Positions 6,479 through 13,274 of a stretch of 20,885 nt of DNA are shown here, piece by piece (the first letter of the stretch is position 1; each line of letters starts with the position of its first letter). Source of the DNA: a virus; IMG/VR virus record IMGVR_UViG_3300045974_000997, positions 1-20,885 of that record; one strand, 5' to 3'. A program made the translations under genes and the position numbers. The notes under the pieces were generated by a model, which saw only the letters and a program-made list of their open reading frames with translations, made no database searches and was not told the DNA's origin.

Positions 6479-6696
6479 GGGGTTCCTTTGTTAGCTAGGT
6501 TGATGACGTTTCGTGCAGTGGCGAAGCGCCGCCCGTTGGGGGCTCCTTCGACATAGGCGGTCTTGCGCTTGCTAAGCGGCCACCAGTGCACGTTCACTAG
6601 GCCACCTACGACCAGAACGCGTCCGTCTGCGTATTCAATGACTTCGAGCTCTGCGGCCCGCGCCATCTTTTTGAGGGTTTGCACCTCCTTATTCAC
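6475..6696 (-). CDS. hypothetical phage protein, 73 aa
   Basis: This small protein has a helical N-terminus (KKMARAAELEV) followed by a strand-rich core with a HWWPLSKRKTAYVEG motif and a C-terminal helix (RNVINLA). I believe I have seen this pattern among phage early proteins but cannot assign a function. It starts at GTG (6694-6696), overlapping the upstream stop as GTGA, with GAGG 8 nt before it. A perfect AAGGAGGT lies inside codons 3-5, but the next ATG is 17 nt away, too far to use it. Its own stop overlaps the ATG at 6478. Confidence 0.65.
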   Translation of the reverse strand: MNKEVQTLKKMARAAELEVIEYADGRVLVVGGLVNVHWWPLSKRKTAYVEGAPNGRRFATARNVINLANKGTP

Positions 6697-6908
6697 GCTG
6701 TTGCCTCGCTAAGGCTGTAAGCCTCTACCTGCTGGATGCTGTATCCGAGTTGGGCTGCGTAGGTGATATTTGCGCCGGATAGTGTTTTGGTTCCTGCGAT
6801 CTTTGCGAAGAGTTCAGCGACATCGTTCGCTGGGTAAATCTTCTGCACGCCAAAGACGTTTTGAATCTTGACTAAAAGAACCTTGCTCTTGATTACTACG
6901 TTTGACAT
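6693..6908 (-). CDS. hypothetical phage protein under its own operator-controlled promoter, 71 aa
   Basis: The protein begins with a Lys/Val-rich strand (VVIKSKVLLVKI), then a helix (NDVAELFAKIAG) and a region ending in QQVEAY. No domain is recognised. It has one of the strongest Shine-Dalgarno sequences of the window (AGGAGGT, 5 nt before the ATG). A 92-bp non-coding gap upstream holds two operator-like palindromes 22 bp apart and a possible -10 box. This makes it the first gene of a separately controlled leftward unit that continues into the recombination genes. Confidence 0.7.
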   Translation of the reverse strand: MSNVVIKSKVLLVKIQNVFGVQKIYPANDVAELFAKIAGTKTLSGANITYAAQLGYSIQQVEAYSLSEATA

Positions 6909-6942: not shown

Positions 6943-6984
6943 AGAATACCCGAAAACGGATAAAAAAGAAACCGAAAGGGGGTA
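6943..6984 (-). promoter_or_regulatory. leftward promoter with two repressor-type operators
   Basis: Two palindromes of the TAWCCG-N4-CGGWTA class lie in the gap between the genes at 6908 and 7001. One is at 6947-6962 (TACCCGAAAACGGATA). The other, one base off in the core, is at 6969-6984 (AAACCGAAAGGGGGTA). Their centres are 22 bp apart, about two helical turns. On the minus strand the sequence after the first operator reads TATTCT (6948-6943), a plausible -10. The -35 is poor. The same operator/-10 arrangement recurs at the repressor and Cro promoters, so I infer control by the phage repressor and/or Cro. Confidence 0.65.
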
Positions 6985-7000
6985 TTTCAGGGCAAATAAA

Positions 7001-7555
7001 TTAGCGGATTGATCTGCCCAGGTTGTGGCGGGCTACGTGCTGGACGAATAGATTGGGCAGTTCTCGACGCAAATACCGCTCGCGCTGCTGGTGGGTCATC
7101 ACCTCCCACCCGACCTGGGAGATACCGTACTTCCACACCCCGTCGGTGAATTTCACATGGGCATGCATGGCGCGCGAGAAGGGGTCGCGATCAATCTGCG
7201 TCATCAGGGTTTCAAGCTGCACGAGGTAGAGTTGCGGGGACTGCACTGCATCAGCCGGCGACACAACCATGTAGGGCGTGTTGTTTGGATCTGCATAGGT
7301 CATCACCGGCTGGTCGTCGGTGCTCTGGCTGTGCATTGTTATGGTTTCAGTCGCCGGGAACAGAATCGACATATGACCGGCCAGTTCTCTGGCCCGGGTC
7401 AGTACATCGCGCAGCTCCGCTATCTCTCCGCGTTGAGACGAAATGATGTCGCGATAACTCTCTACGACCTGTTGCAGCATCACGTTGTGCGTGGTGCAGG
7501 CCTGGAGGGCTTCGCGGGCGCGGCGGCGTTGGTTTCTACCAAATCGGCGGCTCAT
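7001..7555 (-). CDS. hypothetical phage protein, 184 aa
   Basis: A very basic N-terminus (SRRFGRNQRRRAREAL) leads into a coiled-coil-like helix (about residues 25-62). A globular part follows, with HVKFTDGVWKYGISQVGWEVMTHQQRERYLRRELPNLF near the C-terminus. I know no family name for it. The basic start could bind nucleic acid, which is inference only. AGGGGC lies 5 nt before the ATG, and the ATG overlaps the stop of the upstream zinc-finger gene as ATGA. It is the last gene before the operator-bearing gap at 6909-7000. Confidence 0.65.
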   Translation of the reverse strand: MSRRFGRNQRRRAREALQACTTHNVMLQQVVESYRDIISSQRGEIAELRDVLTRARELAGHMSILFPATETITMHSQSTDDQPVMTYADPNNTPYMVVSPADAVQSPQLYLVQLETLMTQIDRDPFSRAMHAHVKFTDGVWKYGISQVGWEVMTHQQRERYLRRELPNLFVQHVARHNLGRSIR

Positions 7556-7788
7556 ACATTGCCCCTAGGACTAATACATTGATCAACCTTGCTAATCCCG
7601 TGCACGTCACGGACATGCTGCCAAAGCCCTTGTTCCTTCGGCTTCGCATCGCAGTGTGGGCACTTAACCCGCTTGTAGACTGGTTTTACTTGGCTGCGCT
7701 TTGGCTCGTTCTCGTCGTACTCGCCGATGTCGTAATCGTGCGCCTGCTTGATTTCTTGGCGCATGTAGTCGTGTGCGTATTCACCCAT
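7552..7788 (-). CDS. small C2H2-type zinc-finger protein, 78 aa
   Basis: I start at the ATG at 7786-7788, preceded by AGGAG 7 nt upstream, and not at the longer frame reaching 7857. The N-terminal half is acidic and Tyr-rich. The C-terminal half holds a single Cys2-His2 finger, CPHCDAKPKEQGLWQHVRDVHG, with the usual CxxC...HxxxxH spacing, followed by a short tail. It probably binds zinc and perhaps DNA or a host protein. It overlaps the membrane-protein gene upstream by 8 bp and the 184-aa gene downstream as ATGA. Confidence 0.75.
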   Translation of the reverse strand: MGEYAHDYMRQEIKQAHDYDIGEYDENEPKRSQVKPVYKRVKCPHCDAKPKEQGLWQHVRDVHGISKVDQCISPRGNV

Positions 7789-7897
7789 GGTTGTGCTCCT
7801 TGCGTCGACCGCAAAACTTACATAGCGAGTCCCAAGCCCAGAACGGCCACAACACAATCACAGCAGCCACGATAAGCCTGGCAGTCTTTCCGTTCAT
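7781..7897 (-). CDS. tiny single-pass membrane protein, 38 aa
   Basis: The ATG at 7895-7897 overlaps the stop of the 31-aa ORF as ATGA. Residues 6-24 (ARLIVAAVIVLWPFWAWDS) form one hydrophobic, Trp-rich helix. A short tail follows with a CKFC pair and a basic/His-rich end, so the N-terminus is short and the tail Cys-rich. It overlaps the zinc-finger gene by 8 bp. A longer in-frame extension to 7966 has an Arg-rich start that I consider a shadow. It is one of three consecutive small membrane proteins here. Possible roles are interference with host membrane functions or superinfection exclusion, but this is inference. Confidence 0.6.
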   Translation of the reverse strand: MNGKTARLIVAAVIVLWPFWAWDSLCKFCGRRKEHNHG

Positions 7898-7989
7898 GAC
7901 AGATACCCCAGGAAAAAACAGGCCACTGCAAACAGCACGAGGCGCACGGCCACGGTGCGCATCCATTGCTCAATTTTCCCGGCGCTCAT
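7894..7989 (-). CDS. 31-aa putative membrane micro-protein
   Basis: The ATG at 7987-7989 overlaps the stop of the upstream 52-aa gene as ATGA, and its own TGA overlaps the next ATG as ATGA. The peptide has a short amphipathic start (SAGKIEQWMRTV) followed by a hydrophobic helix of about 18 residues (VRLVLFAVACFFLGYLS). The exact fit between two neighbours with 4-bp overlaps on both sides, together with a clean membrane helix, supports a real gene despite its size. No strong Shine-Dalgarno is seen, so translation is likely coupled. Function unknown. Confidence 0.6.
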   Translation of the reverse strand: MSAGKIEQWMRTVAVRLVLFAVACFFLGYLS

Positions 7990-8144
7990 ACTGGCAACCA
8001 GAGCAGGGCAGCACAAACCACACAGCAGGTCACACAGGCGGTGATCACTACTTTGTCCTGCCAATCGAAAGGCCGCAGATCTTCAACCAGTTGCCACTCT
8101 TTTGCCGGAGCGGTGGGCTGGATAGCACTTGTGTCTTTGGGCAT
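7986..8144 (-). CDS. small C-terminally anchored membrane protein, 52 aa
   Basis: The start is the ATG at 8142-8144, with an excellent GGAGGA Shine-Dalgarno. The first 30 residues are soluble and acidic/aromatic (KEWQLVEDLRPFDWQDK). The last 20 form one hydrophobic, Cys-rich helix (VVITACVTCCVVCAALLWLP) ending at the C-terminus, a tail-anchor layout. It is the first of three overlapping small membrane-protein genes. A perfect operator-like palindrome (8158-8173) lies 13 bp upstream, suggesting repression in the lysogen. Function unknown. Confidence 0.65.
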   Translation of the reverse strand: MPKDTSAIQPTAPAKEWQLVEDLRPFDWQDKVVITACVTCCVVCAALLWLPV

Positions 8145-8157
8145 AAATCCTCCAAAA

Positions 8158-8173
8158 TATCCGTTAACGGTTA
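8158..8173 (-). promoter_or_regulatory. perfect operator-like palindrome before the small membrane-protein genes
   Basis: The sequence TATCCGTTAACGGTTA contains CCGTTAACGG, a perfect 10-bp palindrome of the same class as the sites in the immunity region. It covers the last codons and stop of the 196-aa gene and ends just before the GGAGGA of the 52-aa gene. TATTTT follows on the minus strand (8159-8154), but a transcript from that -10 would omit the Shine-Dalgarno. It may therefore be an operator or roadblock site, not a promoter. Confidence 0.5.
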
Positions 8174-8754
8174 TTGATGGTCGTGGCTTTGGTAATTGCG
8201 GCGTTTGCCTGATCAACCAGACTGCAATCAACGCTGATGGAGCCATAGTCCAGCAGCATGTACTTCAATGCGCTCAATAGGTCGGGGGCCGCTGCGATCA
8301 GCGCTGCATTTGCTTCCGTGGTCCCGTCCTCGCGCAGATAGACCGTTGCCACATCGTGGGTGTCGGGCGCCTGGCCACAGATGATGTCGCCCTGGCCGAT
8401 GTGGAACCACGGGCCGGGAAGGTGGGCAATAGGGGAAATACCCAGGTCGGTCTGGCCTGTGTCTGGCTGCAGTTCTTGGACTCTGCTCTCCAGTTCCAGC
8501 ACGCGCGCCTGCAGCGCATCGCGCTCGCCTGCCGTTTCCATCAGCAAAGCAAACACTGGGGCTGGGTCGCCGGCTACTTTTTCCAACTTTTCGGTAGCAA
8601 TACCATCGCAGGCATTCCAGCACACTGCAAGGCGGCGGGCTAGGTTGTGTGAGTATTGCCGGACCGTTGCCACCAGGCCATCAGCGTGCCGCAGTTCTGA
8701 ATGCGCATAGACCGTAAACGCTTCCAGCCTCCCGTATGTATGTGCGCTGCTCAT
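8164..8754 (-). CDS. phage protein of the ANAALIAAAPDLL family, 196 aa
   Basis: The protein contains two motifs widespread in early proteins of temperate phages: NLARRLAVCWNACDGIATEKLEKV near residues 37-60 and ANAALIAAAPDLLSALKYML near residues 148-167. Between them is a coiled-coil segment (about 70-95) and a compact strand region (GPWFHIGQGDIICG). The role of these Ea22-like/early phage proteins is not established. A CGGAGG lies 5 nt before the ATG, which overlaps the upstream stop as ATGA. It shares its first motif with the next gene upstream, so the two may be paralogues. Confidence 0.75.
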   Translation of the reverse strand: MSSAHTYGRLEAFTVYAHSELRHADGLVATVRQYSHNLARRLAVCWNACDGIATEKLEKVAGDPAPVFALLMETAGERDALQARVLELESRVQELQPDTGQTDLGISPIAHLPGPWFHIGQGDIICGQAPDTHDVATVYLREDGTTEANAALIAAAPDLLSALKYMLLDYGSISVDCSLVDQANAAITKATTINNR

Positions 8755-9269
8755 GCTGGCCTCCGGGTGTATTCCTTGGCGATGGCCTCGGCCTTGGCGA
8801 CCACTTTCCGCGCGTTTGTCAGCGCCTCGTCGTCAGACTGATTCATCATGGTGGGGTTGTTGTCGATGTGCCAGGCCAATCCATTGCACAGCGTGTCCAG
8901 GGCGTCCAGCAGGTCAGCATGCGACCGCTGCATCATCCGGTAGGGCATGGTGGCCGTTCCCAGAGCGTCAACCGCTTCGATCAACTCGGTTTCACAGCCC
9001 ATAAACGAGTTCCAGCAGGCTACCAGTCTCCGGGCATTGGCCGCGCGCATGTCGGGATTGTTAGGCCCGAAGTCCAACGCAACGGCAACGGTTGCGGAGG
9101 CGTCGTGGTTTTGGATTGCTGTCTCCGGCATGCCCTTGTTGTCGAATATCTCGACGGCTACCTGCAGTAGGCCGGGCGTGTGTGGCTTGGCCGGTGCAGG
9201 GGCCAGTGCCTGCCTGAGTTTCTTGCTCATGTTCATCTGACCGGTGATAAGTGGGGTAATCGGTTTCAC
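8751..9269 (-). CDS. phage early protein related to its neighbour, 172 aa
   Basis: A central motif ANARRLVACWNSFMGCETELIEAV (about residues 77-100) resembles the ARRLAVCWNACDGIATEKLEKV motif of the 196-aa protein downstream. Both then carry a DLL-AL helix (ADLLDALDTL here). I infer duplication followed by divergence, or two members of one phage family. The GTG at 9267-9269 is chosen because GGAGG lies 8 nt upstream and it forms a GTGA overlap with the upstream gene. An ATG at codon 12 is an alternative. Function unknown. Confidence 0.7.
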   Translation of the reverse strand: MKPITPLITGQMNMSKKLRQALAPAPAKPHTPGLLQVAVEIFDNKGMPETAIQNHDASATVAVALDFGPNNPDMRAANARRLVACWNSFMGCETELIEAVDALGTATMPYRMMQRSHADLLDALDTLCNGLAWHIDNNPTMMNQSDDEALTNARKVVAKAEAIAKEYTRRPA

Positions 9270-9472
9270 GACCGGACCTCCAGAAACTTGCGGACGGCGT
9301 GGAGGGTGCGCAGCTCTACGGGTTTGGACGTGTTCTGCTCGCCGCAGATCGTCAGTTCATGGGCAATGATGATTCCGCTGCCGACGATGAATTGCAGGCC
9401 ACCGCGGACCATGGCGACGGCGGCGCGCTCCAGGTCTTTGGTGTTCATGGTAGTGGTGTTGGGGTTTGTCAT
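9266..9472 (-). CDS. hypothetical phage protein, 68 aa
   Basis: The ATG at 9470-9472 has a perfect AGGAGG 4 nt upstream and overlaps the methyltransferase stop as ATGA, so I reject the longer frame to 9556. The protein has a Thr/Asn-rich start, a hydrophobic Gly-rich middle (AAVAMVRGGLQFIVGSGIIIAHELTIC in its core) and a basic C-terminal helix (LRTLHAVRKFLEV). No domain is recognised. The hydrophobic middle could be buried or membrane-associated. Confidence 0.65.
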   Translation of the reverse strand: MTNPNTTTMNTKDLERAAVAMVRGGLQFIVGSGIIIAHELTICGEQNTSKPVELRTLHAVRKFLEVRS

Positions 9473-11592
9473 GCAGCCTCCTGGATGCGTTGTGATTCTT
9501 GATAGTTGGCCGCGACATAGGCGCGGGCCATGGGTGGGCAAACCGAATTTCCACACATGCGGACTTGTGCGGTCTTAGTCAGCACGCGGCCATCGCCGCC
9601 ACGCTCGATCTGATAGCTCTCAGGGAATCCTTGGGCCCTGTAGAGCTCGCGCGGTGTGAGCATGCGTAGGCCGATGTCAACGATCTGGTATTGCTGGCCC
9701 TTGACCGTGACCAGACCGAACCGGTCTTTTGTGGTGACGGTGTGCAGCGGATCGCCCAGTTGCGGGTCCTGGTCGGTGCCGTAGTACTTCACAAGGAACG
9801 CACGAACCTCGGCATGATGGGTGCCTTGCGCGCTGATGGTGTGCAACGGCTCGTCGACTGGCTGGCCTTCCTTGCTGGTGCCACGCAGCTTGATCAGGTT
9901 GCTGGTGACCAGCGCCTGACCGCCAGAGCTGGTGACGGTGCGCAGCGGTGTCTCGGCATCCCAGGCGTTGGGCCCTCTGCCGGTAGTCTTGCTGTTGGCA
10001 GTGTTGACCAGTACCGAAGTGACCAAAGCGGCGGGCATGCCTGACGCCGTGACCGTGTTCAGTGGGTCGGTGATGTCGCGCACGCCATGGCTCCAGTGCT
10101 TTGCGCCGTTGGCTTCCTCGCCGTGGCCCATGTGCACTAGGTTGGCGGTAATCAGCGCAGCGTCTGCCTTGCTGGTGGCGGTCGCGGTGGGTTCATCCAG
10201 GCCGCGCGGGCGGCTTTGTCCGGCTCGGCCACCGACACCGGCCAGCACTGCTGTGACCATTCCCATCACATTGCCCGTGCTGGCGCGGGCCGGTGTGCCG
10301 CCTGCTGTCACGGTATGGATTGGTTCATCCATCGCACTGCCAGTGCTGCCAGACCGAAACTTGGTCAGGTGTGCTGTCAGCAGGCTGTGGTGGTCCACGC
10401 TGGTTACGGTGCCAAGCGGGTCTTCCATATCACTGCCGACCACGCCGGTGTAATGCTTCACAAGCGAAGCCGCAACCAGCCCAAAGTGCCCGCCCTTGAC
10501 CTCAGCCATCTGCGTGCGCAGCGGTTCGTCAATCGGCATGACGCGCTGGCTCGAAGCATTGGCGTGCTCGTTAAGGAACGCGGTCACCAAGGCGTGCTTC
10601 TGGCCCGCCACTACGGTGCCAAGCGGCTTGTGTAGGTCCAGCGCGCGTGGCGCCTGGCCTTCGCGTTCACCATAGCCAGTCTGCACCAGCGTCGGAACAA
10701 TCAGCGCCTTCTCGCCCCGATTGGCTCCGGTTACGGTATTGAATGGCTTGGTGATGTCCTCGGTGCGGTCGCCGCCTTGGTGGGTCAGCGGCACGATGAA
10801 CGGGTTTGCCGCGTTGACGACGTAGCGCATGATGCCTTTGGCGATACGCCGTTTGGTGGCCTCGGCCAGGGGACGGGTGCGCTCGAAGATACTGGGCGCA
10901 GGGATGTCCCACTGGATGCACTCGGCGGCGGTGCGGAAGGGCTTGAGCTTCTTCTGTTTGACTGGCAGGGTATCGGGCGCTCCGTGGGTAGCCGACGGGA
11001 ACACGATCGGAAGGCCATCGCACCGGGCGACCAGGAACAGGCGCTTGCGGATAGTGGGTGTTCCCATATCACTGGCGCGGTCCTCGCGGAAGTCCACCGT
11101 GTAGCCAAGGTTCTCCAGTGACGACTTCCAACGCTTGAAGGTGCGGCCCTTGCGCTCCTTGCATGGCATGTTGTTCGCGTCCAGCGGGCCCCAGGTCTGG
11201 AATTCCTCAACGTTCTCCAAGAAGATGACGCGCGGCCGTACCAGCTTTGCCCACTTGATGACGACCCAGGCCAAGCCCCGAATTTTCTTGCTGACCGGCT
11301 TGCCGCCCTTGGCCTTGCTGAAGTGCTTGCAATCGGGCGATGCCCAGAGCATGCCCACGGGGCGACCGTCGACAACAGCCAGCGGGTCCACCTCGAACAC
11401 GTCCGACACGAAGTGCAGCGTTTGCGGGTGGTTTGCCTGGTGCAGGGCCACGGCTTCCGGGTCGTGGTTGATGGCGATGTCAACAGAGCGACCGATCGCC
11501 TGCTCAATGCCGGTACTGGCACCACCACCACCGGCAAAAAGGTCGATCACCAGTTCGTGGTGGATGGGGAGTAGGAATTGGGGACTTAGCAT
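9469..11592 (-). CDS. phage DNA cytosine-C5 methyltransferase with internal repeat array
   Basis: This 707-aa protein would transfer a methyl group from AdoMet to C5 of cytosine, probably shielding phage DNA from host restriction. Motif I is DLFAGGGGASTGIE (17-30), motif IV with the catalytic Cys88 is SPDCKHFS (85-92; PDC where the classic form is PPC), motif VI is ENV (126-128), motif VIII is IRKRLFLV (181-188), motif IX is about 643-661 and motif X is CGNSVCPPMARAYVAA (680-695). Between VIII and IX, where the target-recognition domain sits, are about ten repeats of roughly 25-40 residues with the core PLxTVTxxxxxALVxxxL (279-633). Typical enzymes have 330-450 aa. CGGGG lies 7 nt before the ATG. 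It heads the leftward operon after a 42-aa ORF. Confidence 0.93.
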   Translation of the reverse strand: MLSPQFLLPIHHELVIDLFAGGGGASTGIEQAIGRSVDIAINHDPEAVALHQANHPQTLHFVSDVFEVDPLAVVDGRPVGMLWASPDCKHFSKAKGGKPVSKKIRGLAWVVIKWAKLVRPRVIFLENVEEFQTWGPLDANNMPCKERKGRTFKRWKSSLENLGYTVDFREDRASDMGTPTIRKRLFLVARCDGLPIVFPSATHGAPDTLPVKQKKLKPFRTAAECIQWDIPAPSIFERTRPLAEATKRRIAKGIMRYVVNAANPFIVPLTHQGGDRTEDITKPFNTVTGANRGEKALIVPTLVQTGYGEREGQAPRALDLHKPLGTVVAGQKHALVTAFLNEHANASSQRVMPIDEPLRTQMAEVKGGHFGLVAASLVKHYTGVVGSDMEDPLGTVTSVDHHSLLTAHLTKFRSGSTGSAMDEPIHTVTAGGTPARASTGNVMGMVTAVLAGVGGRAGQSRPRGLDEPTATATSKADAALITANLVHMGHGEEANGAKHWSHGVRDITDPLNTVTASGMPAALVTSVLVNTANSKTTGRGPNAWDAETPLRTVTSSGGQALVTSNLIKLRGTSKEGQPVDEPLHTISAQGTHHAEVRAFLVKYYGTDQDPQLGDPLHTVTTKDRFGLVTVKGQQYQIVDIGLRMLTPRELYRAQGFPESYQIERGGDGRVLTKTAQVRMCGNSVCPPMARAYVAANYQESQRIQEAA
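9694..10758 (-). repeat. about ten degenerate protein-level repeats in the methyltransferase
   Basis: Repeats share the core (D/E/K)P(L/I)xTVT...(A/G)LVT..L. They start near residues 281, 321, 354, 389, 421, 465, 507, 547, 579 and 613. The spacing varies from 25 to 45 residues. The DNA itself is not a clean tandem repeat, so the array is old and under protein-level selection. Confidence 0.85.
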
Positions 11593-11594
11593 GA

Positions 11595-11723
11595 CTAAAC
11601 CCCGATACCAAGAATCTTGCGTGCCATTGCGGCGCTGGGTTCTCTGCGTACCTGGGAGTAGGTGTATCGGGCGTCCATTTGAAAATAGAGCGCCGCGTCG
11701 ATGTCTGACATCTGATCAACCAT
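11595..11723 (-). CDS. 42-aa ORF leading the methyltransferase operon
   Basis: The ATG is at 11721-11723 with AAAGGA 7 nt upstream, and the TAG at 11595-11597 is 2 bp before the methyltransferase ATG. The peptide begins MVDQMSDIDAALYFQMDARY and ends with a basic helix (ARKILGIGV). It is soluble, with no recognised domain. Its strong ribosome-binding site and first position after the operator-flanked promoter support expression. It might act mainly as a translational leader for the methyltransferase, which has only a modest Shine-Dalgarno. Confidence 0.65.
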   Translation of the reverse strand: MVDQMSDIDAALYFQMDARYTYSQVRREPSAAMARKILGIGV

Positions 11724-11742
11724 CTTTAAATCCTTTCCGTTA

Positions 11743-11780
11743 ATTCCGAATACGGATATATTATTAACCGAAAAAGGATA
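11743..11780 (-). promoter_or_regulatory. leftward early promoter region with two operators
   Basis: Two operator-like palindromes lie 20-57 bp upstream of the first leftward gene: 11743-11758 (ATTCCGAATACGGATA) and 11765-11780 (TAACCGAAAAAGGATA, one core mismatch). Their centres are 22 bp apart, the same as for the pair at 6947-6984. TAATAA on the minus strand (11766-11761) lies between them and could be the -10; no good -35 is seen. This is the likely equivalent of lambda PL. It is presumably blocked by the repressor in the lysogen. Confidence 0.7.
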
Positions 11781-11830
11781 TTTGCGTGAAATTTTTTACG
11801 GGTCGCAGAAATGCAACCCAAGCGTGCAAT

Positions 11831-12364
11831 TTAGACAAGTTTTAGCCGCTGTCCGATTGGCTCAATAGACCGCGTTGCAGACACTGAGAGTTGACACGGA
11901 CCGCAGAGCAGCACGAATTTTGCTGACTGGGATTGATGCGACCAGTGGCGATCTAAATACAAATCAGATGCCGGTAGTTGAACGCTGCAGTGTTGACATT
12001 GGCAACCACTGGCGTCGATCAATTCGCGCTTGCGGCGGGCTGGTTGAGAACTATGGTTCTGGACAATGGATGGTGTTACTTCGATGTCCGGTCGCCCGAC
12101 TTCCTGGCGCAATTGCAGCGCGGCCTCTTCAAGTGCAGGCAGCATGACCCGCGCATGCTCAGGCTCCAAGCCAATTCCCTTGGTGCTGACTTGTCCGCAT
12201 GCGGTGAGCGTGATATTGATAATCGCGACAGGCTTTAACTCCGAGATTGCCTGGTCGATGTGCCATTGCTTGAGTGCAGCAACACGCTGAGGATTCGGCT
12301 GGATGACGTCAGAGCTAAGACTTCTTACGGCCCCTAGCAATGGTCCCCCGTTCTTTTTCGACAT
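11831..12364 (-). CDS. HNH-like/zinc-ribbon protein co-encoded with the repressor, 177 aa
   Basis: The first 100 residues are unrecognised, with a strand-helix pattern. The last 70 read RRKRELIDASGCQCQHC (Cys121, 123, 126), then DLYLDRHWSHQ (138-143) and FVLLCGPCQLS (Cys154, 157). This is the layout of a treble-clef HNH fold: CxxC, a D-H core, then LLCxxC. The usual DHI-P core is altered to DRHW and the final Asn is absent, so nuclease activity is doubtful. The ATG at 12362-12364 has AGGGA upstream and lies 50 bp inside the repressor gene, so it is probably translated from the repressor transcript in the lysogen. It might be a lysogenic-conversion or defence gene. Confidence 0.6.
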   Translation of the reverse strand: MSKKNGGPLLGAVRSLSSDVIQPNPQRVAALKQWHIDQAISELKPVAIINITLTACGQVSTKGIGLEPEHARVMLPALEEAALQLRQEVGRPDIEVTPSIVQNHSSQPARRKRELIDASGCQCQHCSVQLPASDLYLDRHWSHQSQSAKFVLLCGPCQLSVSATRSIEPIGQRLKLV

Positions 12365-12866
12365 TCTTATTCCCTAGATTTTTTACGTGATCAGCTGCGG
12401 GGGGCCGTGACGATGCCCTCTGCACTGCCGCGACCATCGCGGCGGGAATAGTTGTAACTGAATTCAAACCGATTGGGGAATTATTTTCAGACGGGGGAGG
12501 GGCCTTGCGCGCTACTACCAACCCTATGTAGCCTATGACCGTATGCTTTTCTGCCTCGTCCAGCTTGCGCCACTCTTTAAGCAAGGTCAACTCATCAGTG
12601 CTGGGTGCGATTGGGACCGCATCGGATCCCTCCTTAATAGGAGCAATCAGCGACAACGGGTCGACCTTGAAGGCCTTGGCCAACGACTCCAGAACATCGA
12701 GGCCGGTGTGTACTTGGCGGGTGAGCACGCGCTGAACGGTGGACTGTGACAAGCCAGTGCGCTTGTGTAGCTTGGTCTGCGTGTCAAGCTCAGGGCGTGC
12801 ATCCATCAGTGCACGTAACCTGATCGCCAGTATGTCTTTGAGTTCCATGGCGGCTGAGTATTCCAT
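12315..12866 (-). CDS. phage repressor (CI-like), XRE helix-turn-helix, no peptidase domain
   Basis: The protein has 183 aa. Residues about 10-68 form an XRE/Cro-CI helix-turn-helix: TKLHKRTGLSQSTVQRVLTRQ contains the recognition helix, followed by TGLDVLESLAKAFKVDPLSL. The C-terminal part has a helix LTLLKEWRKLDEAEKHTVIGYI and a basic, probably disordered tail. There is no LexA/S24 Ser-Lys peptidase domain, so RecA-driven self-cleavage is unlikely. Divergence from a Cro-like gene and clustered operators identify it as the lysogenic repressor. An ATG at 12846-12848 is an alternative start, and plausible because the palindrome at 12860-12875 covers the upstream ATG. Neither has a Shine-Dalgarno. 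Confidence 0.82.
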   Translation of the reverse strand: MEYSAAMELKDILAIRLRALMDARPELDTQTKLHKRTGLSQSTVQRVLTRQVHTGLDVLESLAKAFKVDPLSLIAPIKEGSDAVPIAPSTDELTLLKEWRKLDEAEKHTVIGYIGLVVARKAPPPSENNSPIGLNSVTTIPAAMVAAVQRASSRPPAADHVKNLGNKNVEKERGTIARGRKKS

Positions 12867-12875
12867 AAACGGTTA
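12860..12875. promoter_or_regulatory. operator-like site at the repressor start
   Basis: ATTCCATAAACGGTTA fits the consensus TAWCCG-N4-CGGWTA with one core mismatch (CCA for CCG). It covers the outer start codon of the repressor, so binding would block or attenuate repressor transcription (autoregulation). Confidence 0.55.
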
Positions 12876-12884
12876 ATAAAACGA

Positions 12885-12911
12885 GGTTATTTGAATAACC
12901 GTTTTGGGGTA
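12885..12911 (-). promoter_or_regulatory. repressor promoter and operator
   Basis: Bases 12885-12900 form the palindrome GGTTATTTGAATAACC (7-bp arms, 2-bp centre). Overlapping it, 12896-12911 (TAACCGTTTTGGGGTA) matches the operator consensus with one core mismatch. On the minus strand TATTCA (12897-12892) can be a -10, with a weak ATGCAA 16 bp upstream (12919-12914). Transcripts would start near 12885, giving a 19-nt leader to the outer repressor ATG. The arrangement CGGTTATTC directly after the operator mirrors the Cro promoter. Confidence 0.6.
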
Positions 12912-12961
12912 ACTTGCATCCGTGTGCAACTGCGCAAAACACACAAGTTGCCAAAAATGGA

Positions 12962-12989
12962 TTGCGGACTAACCAAAATCGGTTATTCT
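12962..12989 (+). promoter_or_regulatory. cro promoter with embedded operator, leaderless
   Basis: TTGCGG (12962-12967) and TATTCT (12984-12989) are separated by 16 bp. The operator-like palindrome TAACCAAAATCGGTTA (12970-12985, perfect 5-bp arms TAACC/GGTTA) fills the spacer, so a bound repressor would exclude RNA polymerase. The expected start point is at about 12996, the A of the Cro ATG, giving an mRNA with essentially no leader. Confidence 0.65.
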
Positions 12990-12995
12990 TCGGGC

Positions 12996-13274
12996 ATGCC
13001 TAAAGAAACTGTTACCCAATACCTGTTGCGCCGATTGGATGCCAGTGCTGGTACGCACTCGCGCATTGCCAAGGAAACCGGCGTTGCGCAGGCCACCATA
13101 TCCCGGATCTACCTACGCAAGGTGTCGCCACGGCTGGATATAGCCGAGCCCATCCTGGCGTGGTTTGAAAAGCAGGACCGCGCTGCATGCAAGGCGTCAG
13201 CATCCCGTGTCCCCGTCAAGGCAGGCCGAGTCAGTCGTCGTGCCGTTGCTGCACCCCCGGCCCTCAGTCAATAG
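12996..13274 (+). CDS. Cro-like helix-turn-helix regulator, 92 aa
   Basis: I use the ATG at 12996-12998; the longer frame back to 12891 would read through the operators. Residues about 7-50 form a helix-turn-helix with THSRIAKETGVAQATISRIYLRK as its turn and recognition helix, followed by a helix (AEPILAWFEKQD) and a basic, probably disordered tail. It is divergent from the repressor and first in the rightward operon, which is the place of Cro. Its promoter predicts a leaderless transcript, consistent with the lack of a Shine-Dalgarno. It probably binds the same operators and favours lytic growth. Confidence 0.78.
   Translation: MPKETVTQYLLRRLDASAGTHSRIAKETGVAQATISRIYLRKVSPRLDIAEPILAWFEKQDRAACKASASRVPVKAGRVSRRAVAAPPALSQ

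Follow-up and report, generated by a model that had tools for sequence, protein, structure and literature searches.

One palindrome at the cI–cro switch, internal promoters and gene junctions of a phage and its relatives: probable operators of a CI-type repressor

The palindromes and their neighbouring genes

The stretch of DNA analysed here (the window) is a complete IMG/VR virus record, IMGVR_UViG_3300045974_000997, of 20,885 bases, and is probably a fragment of a phage genome. Its subject is a 16-bp palindrome, TAWCCG-N4-CGGWTA, eight copies of which an earlier note, made from the sequence alone, had placed at 6947, 6969, 8158, 11743, 11765, 12860, 12896 and 12970 and read as the operators of a phage-wide regulon; all eight coordinates proved right. 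Three copies lie at the switch between a repressor gene and a cro gene. The repressor gene (12315..12848, minus strand) encodes a CI-type protein with a helix-turn-helix (HTH) and without an S24 domain; its reading frame is open from 12866 and was given 183 codons on first reading, and the start adopted here is the Met conserved in relatives. The Cro-type regulator gene (12996..13274, plus strand) has its start codon 6 bp past a predicted -10 box. Operator OR-a, at the cro promoter (12970..12985, plus strand), is supported by the pattern, the weight matrix and the promoter register described below, with a -10-like TATTCT at 12984-12989 and a possible -35 box, TTGCGG, at 12962-12967 on the same strand. 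A weak ninth operator-like copy (12948..12963, plus strand, matrix score 7.5) stands 22 bp from it, a spacing also seen in relatives. OR-b (12896..12911, minus strand) lies in the cI-cro gap and is supported by pattern, matrix and leave-one-out scoring, and OR-c (12860..12875, minus strand), just upstream of cI, by the matrix and by relatives, its 16-mer TAACCGTTTATGGAAT being identical ahead of cI in three of them (G001, G002 and G003, introduced below).

The other five copies and the genes behind them are all on the minus strand. The leftward control region PL carries operator 1 (11765..11780; matrix, leave-one-out, relatives) and, 22 bp from it, operator 2 (11743..11758) upstream of a methyltransferase operon, the first large gene after PL encoding a C-5 cytosine DNA methyltransferase (9469..11592). 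A second leftward region, P2, has operator 1 at 6969..6984, with the same three lines of support, and operator 2, again 22 bp away, at 6947..6962 with a -10-like TATTCT at 6943-6948; a gene for a 71-residue protein lies downstream (6693..6908), and a homologue follows P2 in G001, G002 and G006. The single copy at 8158..8173, which we call the junction operator, shares bases with the stop codon of the gene 8164..8754, ends 13 bp ahead of the start codon of the gene 7986..8144, which encodes a 52-residue protein with a C-terminal hydrophobic segment, and carries the 5' flank CACGACCATCAA.

The pattern holds letter for letter at 8158 alone; the other seven sites deviate from it by one mismatch (6947, 11765 and 12970), two (11743 and 12896) or three (6969 and 12860). 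The core CCG-N4-CGG with at most one mismatch is present at all eight, as had been stated. By itself this core is unspecific, and it is the AT-rich flanks that give the distinction; 13 exact copies of the core occur in the window, three of them among the eight sites. Allowing up to two mismatches, the whole pattern has 7 matches in the window against 1.19 expected, a number reached in none of 100 shuffles, comprising six of the eight sites and position 12192, which falls within the gene 11831..12364. Up to three mismatches give 23 matches against 12.9 expected (0 of 100 shuffles reach 23), of which 15 are at positions other than the eight. A 20-bp symmetric weight matrix derived from these eight scored them at 17.1-28.6 and the next best window position at 10.4, and under leave-one-out matrices each of the eight ranked in the top 8 (13.0-26.6 against 7.4-11.5 for the best non-sites). 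The observation of one recurring palindrome in the window is confirmed. Its description as nearly always intergenic also stands, with seven of the eight sites non-coding given the CI start at 12848 and the Cro start at 12996, and the stop-codon overlap of 8158 as the exception. The -10-like tail said to follow several of the sites is found at 12970 (CGGTTATTCT, plus strand) and 6947 (CGGGTATTCT, minus strand), and not at every site.

The same sites in related phages

Scans of viral contigs with the repressor returned seven records carrying a related repressor, namely G001 (locus L003, 58% identity), G002 (L009), G003 (L010), G004-G006 (L011-L013, one repressor) and G007 (L014), and a six-member repressor profile found the same seven again. 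G004 and G005 were omitted, their repressor match and sites being identical to those of G006; the remaining five were analysed whole (261 kb), making six phages together with the window (G000). Two scans of genome contigs found no relatives. Repressor matches in a phages collection were limited to the two PAJU2 records, over the HTH region, and Cro as query matched G001 alone among viral contigs and nothing in the phages collection.

The matrix built from the window only gave 39 positions scoring at least 14 and 31 scoring at least 18 in the five relatives. Column-permuted mirrored matrices (300 controls) averaged 0.88 and 0.06 at these thresholds, with 8 and 2 as the largest counts, and 20 Markov sets averaged 0.3 and 0. 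All six phages have operators between cI and cro, a PL series left of the gene after cI, a second leftward series P2, and a single site ahead of a small gene whose product is hydrophobic at its C-terminus (8158 in the window, G001 16449, G002 1152, G003 28787, G006 56330 and G007 9651). By blastp, the gene behind P2 is homologous in G000, G001, G002 and G006, and the same comparison detected no homology in G003 and G007. The small proteins have a best 19-residue hydropathy of 1.64-2.63; those of G000, G001, G002 and G003 share sequence similarity, and those of G006 and G007 show no visible relation.

Sites far from cI were found at G001 56900 (score 25.3), G003 52218 (23.4), G003 8778 (24.8), G006 18676 (20.6) and G007 43328 (19.1), and in the relatives single sites also occur farther left, the putative regulon extending into late genes. 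G003 52218 lies between two late genes, the second of which encodes an internal virion protein, and G003 8778, G006 18676 and G007 43328 are all within a gene for a giant late protein. The giant-gene stretches of G003 and G006 align with each other, and that of G007 agrees in the local peptide alone; the peptide at the three sites is KT(E/G)NGY, with a promoter-like register of 8 of 12 in each. The aligned part of G001 stops just short of this site, and no score of at least 10 was found there. G001 56900 precedes a Bro-N gene by about 280 bp.

Several neighbouring features of these relatives were observed in passing. The Bro-N gene of G001 (PF02498, E 1.5e-24; L018 15895-16659) is divergent from a small secreted-looking gene, with the operator between them. 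Bro-N is a domain that occurs in antirepressors; tblastn found no homologue of this gene in the other five records, and other antirepressor types were not searched for. G003 has a reverse transcriptase gene (PF00078; L022 10843-11844) in its late region, followed by a membrane-type gene and then by operator 52218. A diversity-generating retroelement lies in the early left operon of G001 (L003 9670-12029), between PL and the junction operator, with a template repeat at 10842-10933, variable repeats at 9670-9761 and 10170-10261, 26 of 28 repeat differences at template adenines, and a reverse transcriptase matching PF00078. The gene after PL in G006 (56125-56316; L025 16165-16356) has a methyltransferase N-terminus running directly into a C-terminal stretch, and looks like the outcome of an internal deletion.

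Promoter-type and junction sites

Partners scoring at least 5 around the 47 strong sites were most often 22 bp away (21 cases, strong-strong pairs being counted twice), followed by 36 bp (8), 37 bp (7) and 14 bp (6). The PL and P2 sites form series with this 22-bp spacing in all six phages, laid out so that one operator is preceded by a -35-like box and directly followed by a -10-like box; PL of G001 has TTGCGA-16-TATCAT and PL of G003 has TTGCGC-18-TATAAT. The promoter register was scored as -35 and -10 boxes out of 12 against the sigma-70 consensus. The promoter-type set contained 19 sites, one per promoter (two for the window PL) and cro promoters included. With site classes assigned by eye and the register range chosen, both after the promoter scan, a freedom that the null also had, these sites averaged 8.2 of 12 in the sense register, 13 of them reaching at least 8, and 6.1 in the antisense register. 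Flank shuffles gave a mean of 5.77 (standard deviation 0.27; largest of 500 runs 6.5), and on average 1.4 of the 19 reached 8 (largest 5). The 22-bp series amid -35- and -10-like boxes supports the reading of PL and P2 as putative internal promoters.

The predicted -10 box is separated from the cro start codon by 6-7 nt in all six phages (12984-12998 in the window), so that the cro mRNA may be leaderless. The leaders after PL and P2 are alike within G002, and likewise in G003, G006 and G007 (for instance GTGGTCAGGAATTAAA.AGGAG), which gives both promoters the look of copies of a single cassette.

The 16 non-paired sites (12 junction sites, three in the giant late gene and one distal) averaged 6.0 of 12 in the sense and 6.1 in the antisense register, against a null of 5.56 (standard deviation 0.27); four reach at least 8 (shuffles: mean 0.9, largest 5), three of these in the giant late gene. 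The in-gene sites G001 29949 (12.7 with the window-only matrix) and G003 43268 (14.3) were kept out of the class tests, and G006 52428 (13.0), also weak, was retained as a junction site. The claim that the sites sit at likely promoters is supported for the PL, P2 and cro types and not for the 8158 class; at 8158, a junction site, no promoter is recognisable.

Among the 12 junction sites, the stop codon of the preceding gene is overlapped by 8158 and G006 52428 and, if one of its two candidate frames is used, by G002 1152; G003 52218 abuts such a codon, and five other junction sites begin 2-20 bp past one. The mechanical search gave no gene upstream of G007 9651, and for G001 16449 a 77-residue open reading frame was taken in place of the mechanical pick. 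Nine of the 12 end 4-15 bp ahead of the next start codon, which leaves little room for a downstream promoter, and G002 1152, G003 28787 and G003 21553 each include an AAGG that is likely to belong to the ribosome-binding site of the gene that follows. Six of the 12 (window 8158; G001 16449 and 9738; G002 1152; G003 28787; G006 63182) also carry the 12-nt flank CACGCCCATCAA, with at most two mismatches and in the sense direction, directly 5' of the site. This flank was found at none of the 19 promoter-type sites and on the 3' side of none of 35 sites tested. When scored against a consensus made without the phage in question, the six carriers match at 10-12 of 12 positions and the other six junction sites at 4-9. 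It precedes differing genes, namely small membrane-protein genes and, in G001 and G006, recT-type genes, and is therefore not simply one gene's inheritance.

Collectively, the 8158 class appears to fit a roadblock to elongating polymerase ("stoperator") better than a promoter operator, and our guess is that the flank marks the direction of the roadblock. That every site, including 8158, is an ordinary promoter operator, with promoters of the 8158 class missed by the sigma-70 consensus, would agree with the 8 of 12 at each giant-gene site and the 9 of 12 at G003 21553; it agrees poorly with non-paired means near the null in both directions, with a count at 8 or above that stays within the shuffle range, and with the short distances to start codons, and we regard it as unlikely, if still worth keeping in mind. 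A sigma-54 reading of the flank was weighed by eye and dropped. Part of the flank with a loose core, scanned across viral contigs, matched 11 stretches, four of which are known phages of the group. The other seven had no second operator-like site save one match each in L035 (14.1) and L036 (12.5), and the matched site scored below 10 in all five of the seven in which it was rescored; the idea that the junction element has spread outside this group of phages was rejected.

The likely binder, its mode of action and known systems

The motif co-occurs with this repressor type in the records compared, and the palindrome most likely serves the phage's CI-type repressor as its docking site. A profile made from the CI sequences of all six phages has a match to SPC32H Rep (PDB 5d4z; E 4.4e-10, profile positions 9-118) that spans the HTH and the assembly domain after it, and no S24 peptidase (PF00717) was found in the six phage records or in CI. 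The predicted structure of CI is poor (predicted local distance difference test, pLDDT, 52.7) and was used in no fold search. The cI of PAJU2 has 46% identity to the window CI in the HTH region only, and in its 46.9 kb the motif (combined matrix, score at least 9) occurs beside cI and just left of cI only; as PAJU2 has the related HTH alone and yet carries the motif, the motif appears tied to the HTH. Also in favour of the operator reading, none of 38 viral loci that carry a P2-gene homologue has the motif within 600 bp of that gene; five had one match each elsewhere (13.4-17.0), and L053 had a different palindrome ahead of the gene with no second copy found. CI and Cro have similar recognition helices, at the positions which we take these to occupy, so that Cro may share the sites, just as CI and Cro use common sites in lambda. 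Both proteins are plausible binders.

We hold it to be quite probable, on sequence grounds, that the palindromes are operators of the CI-type repressor, probably common to Cro, and that they serve to block four control regions of the window: cI/cro, PL, P2 and one junction within the left operon. In PL and P2 the 22-bp spacing, two helix turns, would place the copies on one face of the DNA with one of them between the -35 and -10 boxes, and repressor bound there would shut out RNA polymerase. At the promoterless 8158, bound repressor would act as a roadblock to polymerase leaking past PL and would prevent expression of the small membrane protein in the lysogen. Taken alone, this last step is about as likely as not, or slightly less. 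The regulon proposed in the earlier note is partly supported, being right in outline: control regions beyond the two classical clusters are present as PL and P2 in all six phages, 8158 is a promoterless junction in place of an internal promoter, and sites in the relatives reach late genes.

Several points weigh against this interpretation. The conservation may be partly descent because the six phages are few and of common ancestry. The 38 P2-gene loci are a weak control because they are mostly fragments of other phages. The promoter-register test was not blind, since classes and register were picked post hoc. The window's own four promoter-type sites are weak (sense 6-7 of 12), and an antisense score of 8 exceeds the sense score at 11743 (7) and 6947 (6). 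G001 16449, if the first ATG is used, and G003 24415 fall within first codons and are not intergenic. CI and Cro as binders are indistinguishable from these results.

The homology to SPC32H Rep bears on another explanation, in which the junction and distal sites anchor a repressor tetramer and so draw the prophage DNA into loops or folds, in place of a local block to polymerase. Rep is described as a tetramer released by the antirepressor Ant (PMC9638917), with an assembly domain said to resemble DNA-looping domains (PMC9986798), and the CI match covers just this domain and the HTH. Looping would have no need of the gene-junction placement or the one-sided flank, and the poor CI model gives no oligomer state; we rate this explanation as improbable. 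Use of the junction sites as centromere-like or other DNA-maintenance sites is very improbable: the sites are dispersed and single, no tyrosine integrase match was found in G003 (58.5 kb, possibly incomplete) and no resolvase-type match in any record, but their sequence is that of the cI/cro operators, a ParA-type ATPase (PF13614) was found in none of the six records, and an integrase is present in G001, G006 and G007. Chance palindromes selected by eye, an idea to which only the commonness of the CCG-N4-CGG core lends itself, are rejected as having practically no likelihood, because the window-only matrix predicts sites at matching positions in other phages and finds 31 matches of at least 18 there against 0.06 for permuted matrices.

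Returning to the palindromes as repressor operators with a roadblock at the junctions, the arrangement can be compared with known phage switches. Lambda uses two operator clusters. As in the lambda-type switch, cI and cro diverge from a stretch that holds palindromic operators, whereas lambda-type CI has a C-terminal S24 autoprotease domain and the present CI does not. PAJU2, with a related HTH in its cI and a related motif, has two operator clusters, while the control regions here are more numerous and not confined to OL and OR. SPC32H Rep shares homology over the HTH and the following domain as well as dispersed palindromes; it is longer, with an extra N-terminal part, and the half-site and spacing differ from those here. 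In SPC32H, ATTACC-N5-GGTAAT occurs at 18 places with at most two mismatches, three of them inside genes; across 90 half-site arrangements, the true one included, the mean is 1.57, the true arrangement ranks first and the next has 8 places. The eight exact copies are without exception intergenic in the annotation, including ahead of the terminase gene, beside ant and around rep (record L050). We infer that these palindromes are Rep sites. Dispersed operators may therefore be usual for this repressor type, and the papers on SPC32H Rep (PNAS 2016; J Virol 2013) may already describe the dispersed palindromes.

Wider parallels exist for operators scattered over a phage genome. P1 has 22 dispersed, asymmetric C1 operators according to PMC8546580, and the likeness lies in this scatter; the C1 sites are 17 bp and asymmetric, whereas the present sites are 16-bp palindromes, common to the cI-cro switch and occurring in pairs 22 bp apart. 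Cluster A mycobacteriophages such as L5 and Bxb1 have, as PMC6550527 reports, 20-30 repressor sites, most of them outside promoters and oriented with transcription, which stop elongation. The promoterless junction sites described here, half of them with a one-sided flank, resemble these stoperators; binding to the asymmetric L5 sites is non-cooperative, whereas the core here is palindromic and the block to elongation would be its putative counterpart. With 12 junction sites (one in the window) against 19 of promoter type in the six phages, the sites are dispersed, but those outside recognisable promoters are not the majority. Polar intergenic repeats in T1-like phages have also been likened to stoperators, with no role assigned to them (PMC4319613, PMC11447400). 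Literature searches on dispersed operators, roadblocks and this repressor group, in which subscription journals were mostly outside coverage, returned no title or abstract in which this set of sites is described.

If the reading is right, these phages follow a plan of prophage silencing unlike that of lambda, in which one palindrome serves the switch, several promoters and promoterless gene junctions, and repression of a dormant copy may be spread over many points and not just over the two textbook switches. The shared motif would predict which phages are mutually immune. Should the junction sites be roadblocks, direction-dependent silencing would not be limited to mycobacteriophage-like phages, and an SPC32H-like repressor without a self-cleavage domain would offer a compact system for its study. 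The fullest form of this idea, which we put forward tentatively and with somewhat more doubt than conviction, is a polar stoperator system outside the actinobacteriophages, in which a lambda-like palindrome would be reused at gene junctions, a conserved 5' flank would give direction, leaked intra-operon transcription would be stopped, and further sites would silence promoters in late genes across the prophage. Dispersed operators as such are already known from P1 C1 and L5; the form seen in these six phages looks like a new variation on them.

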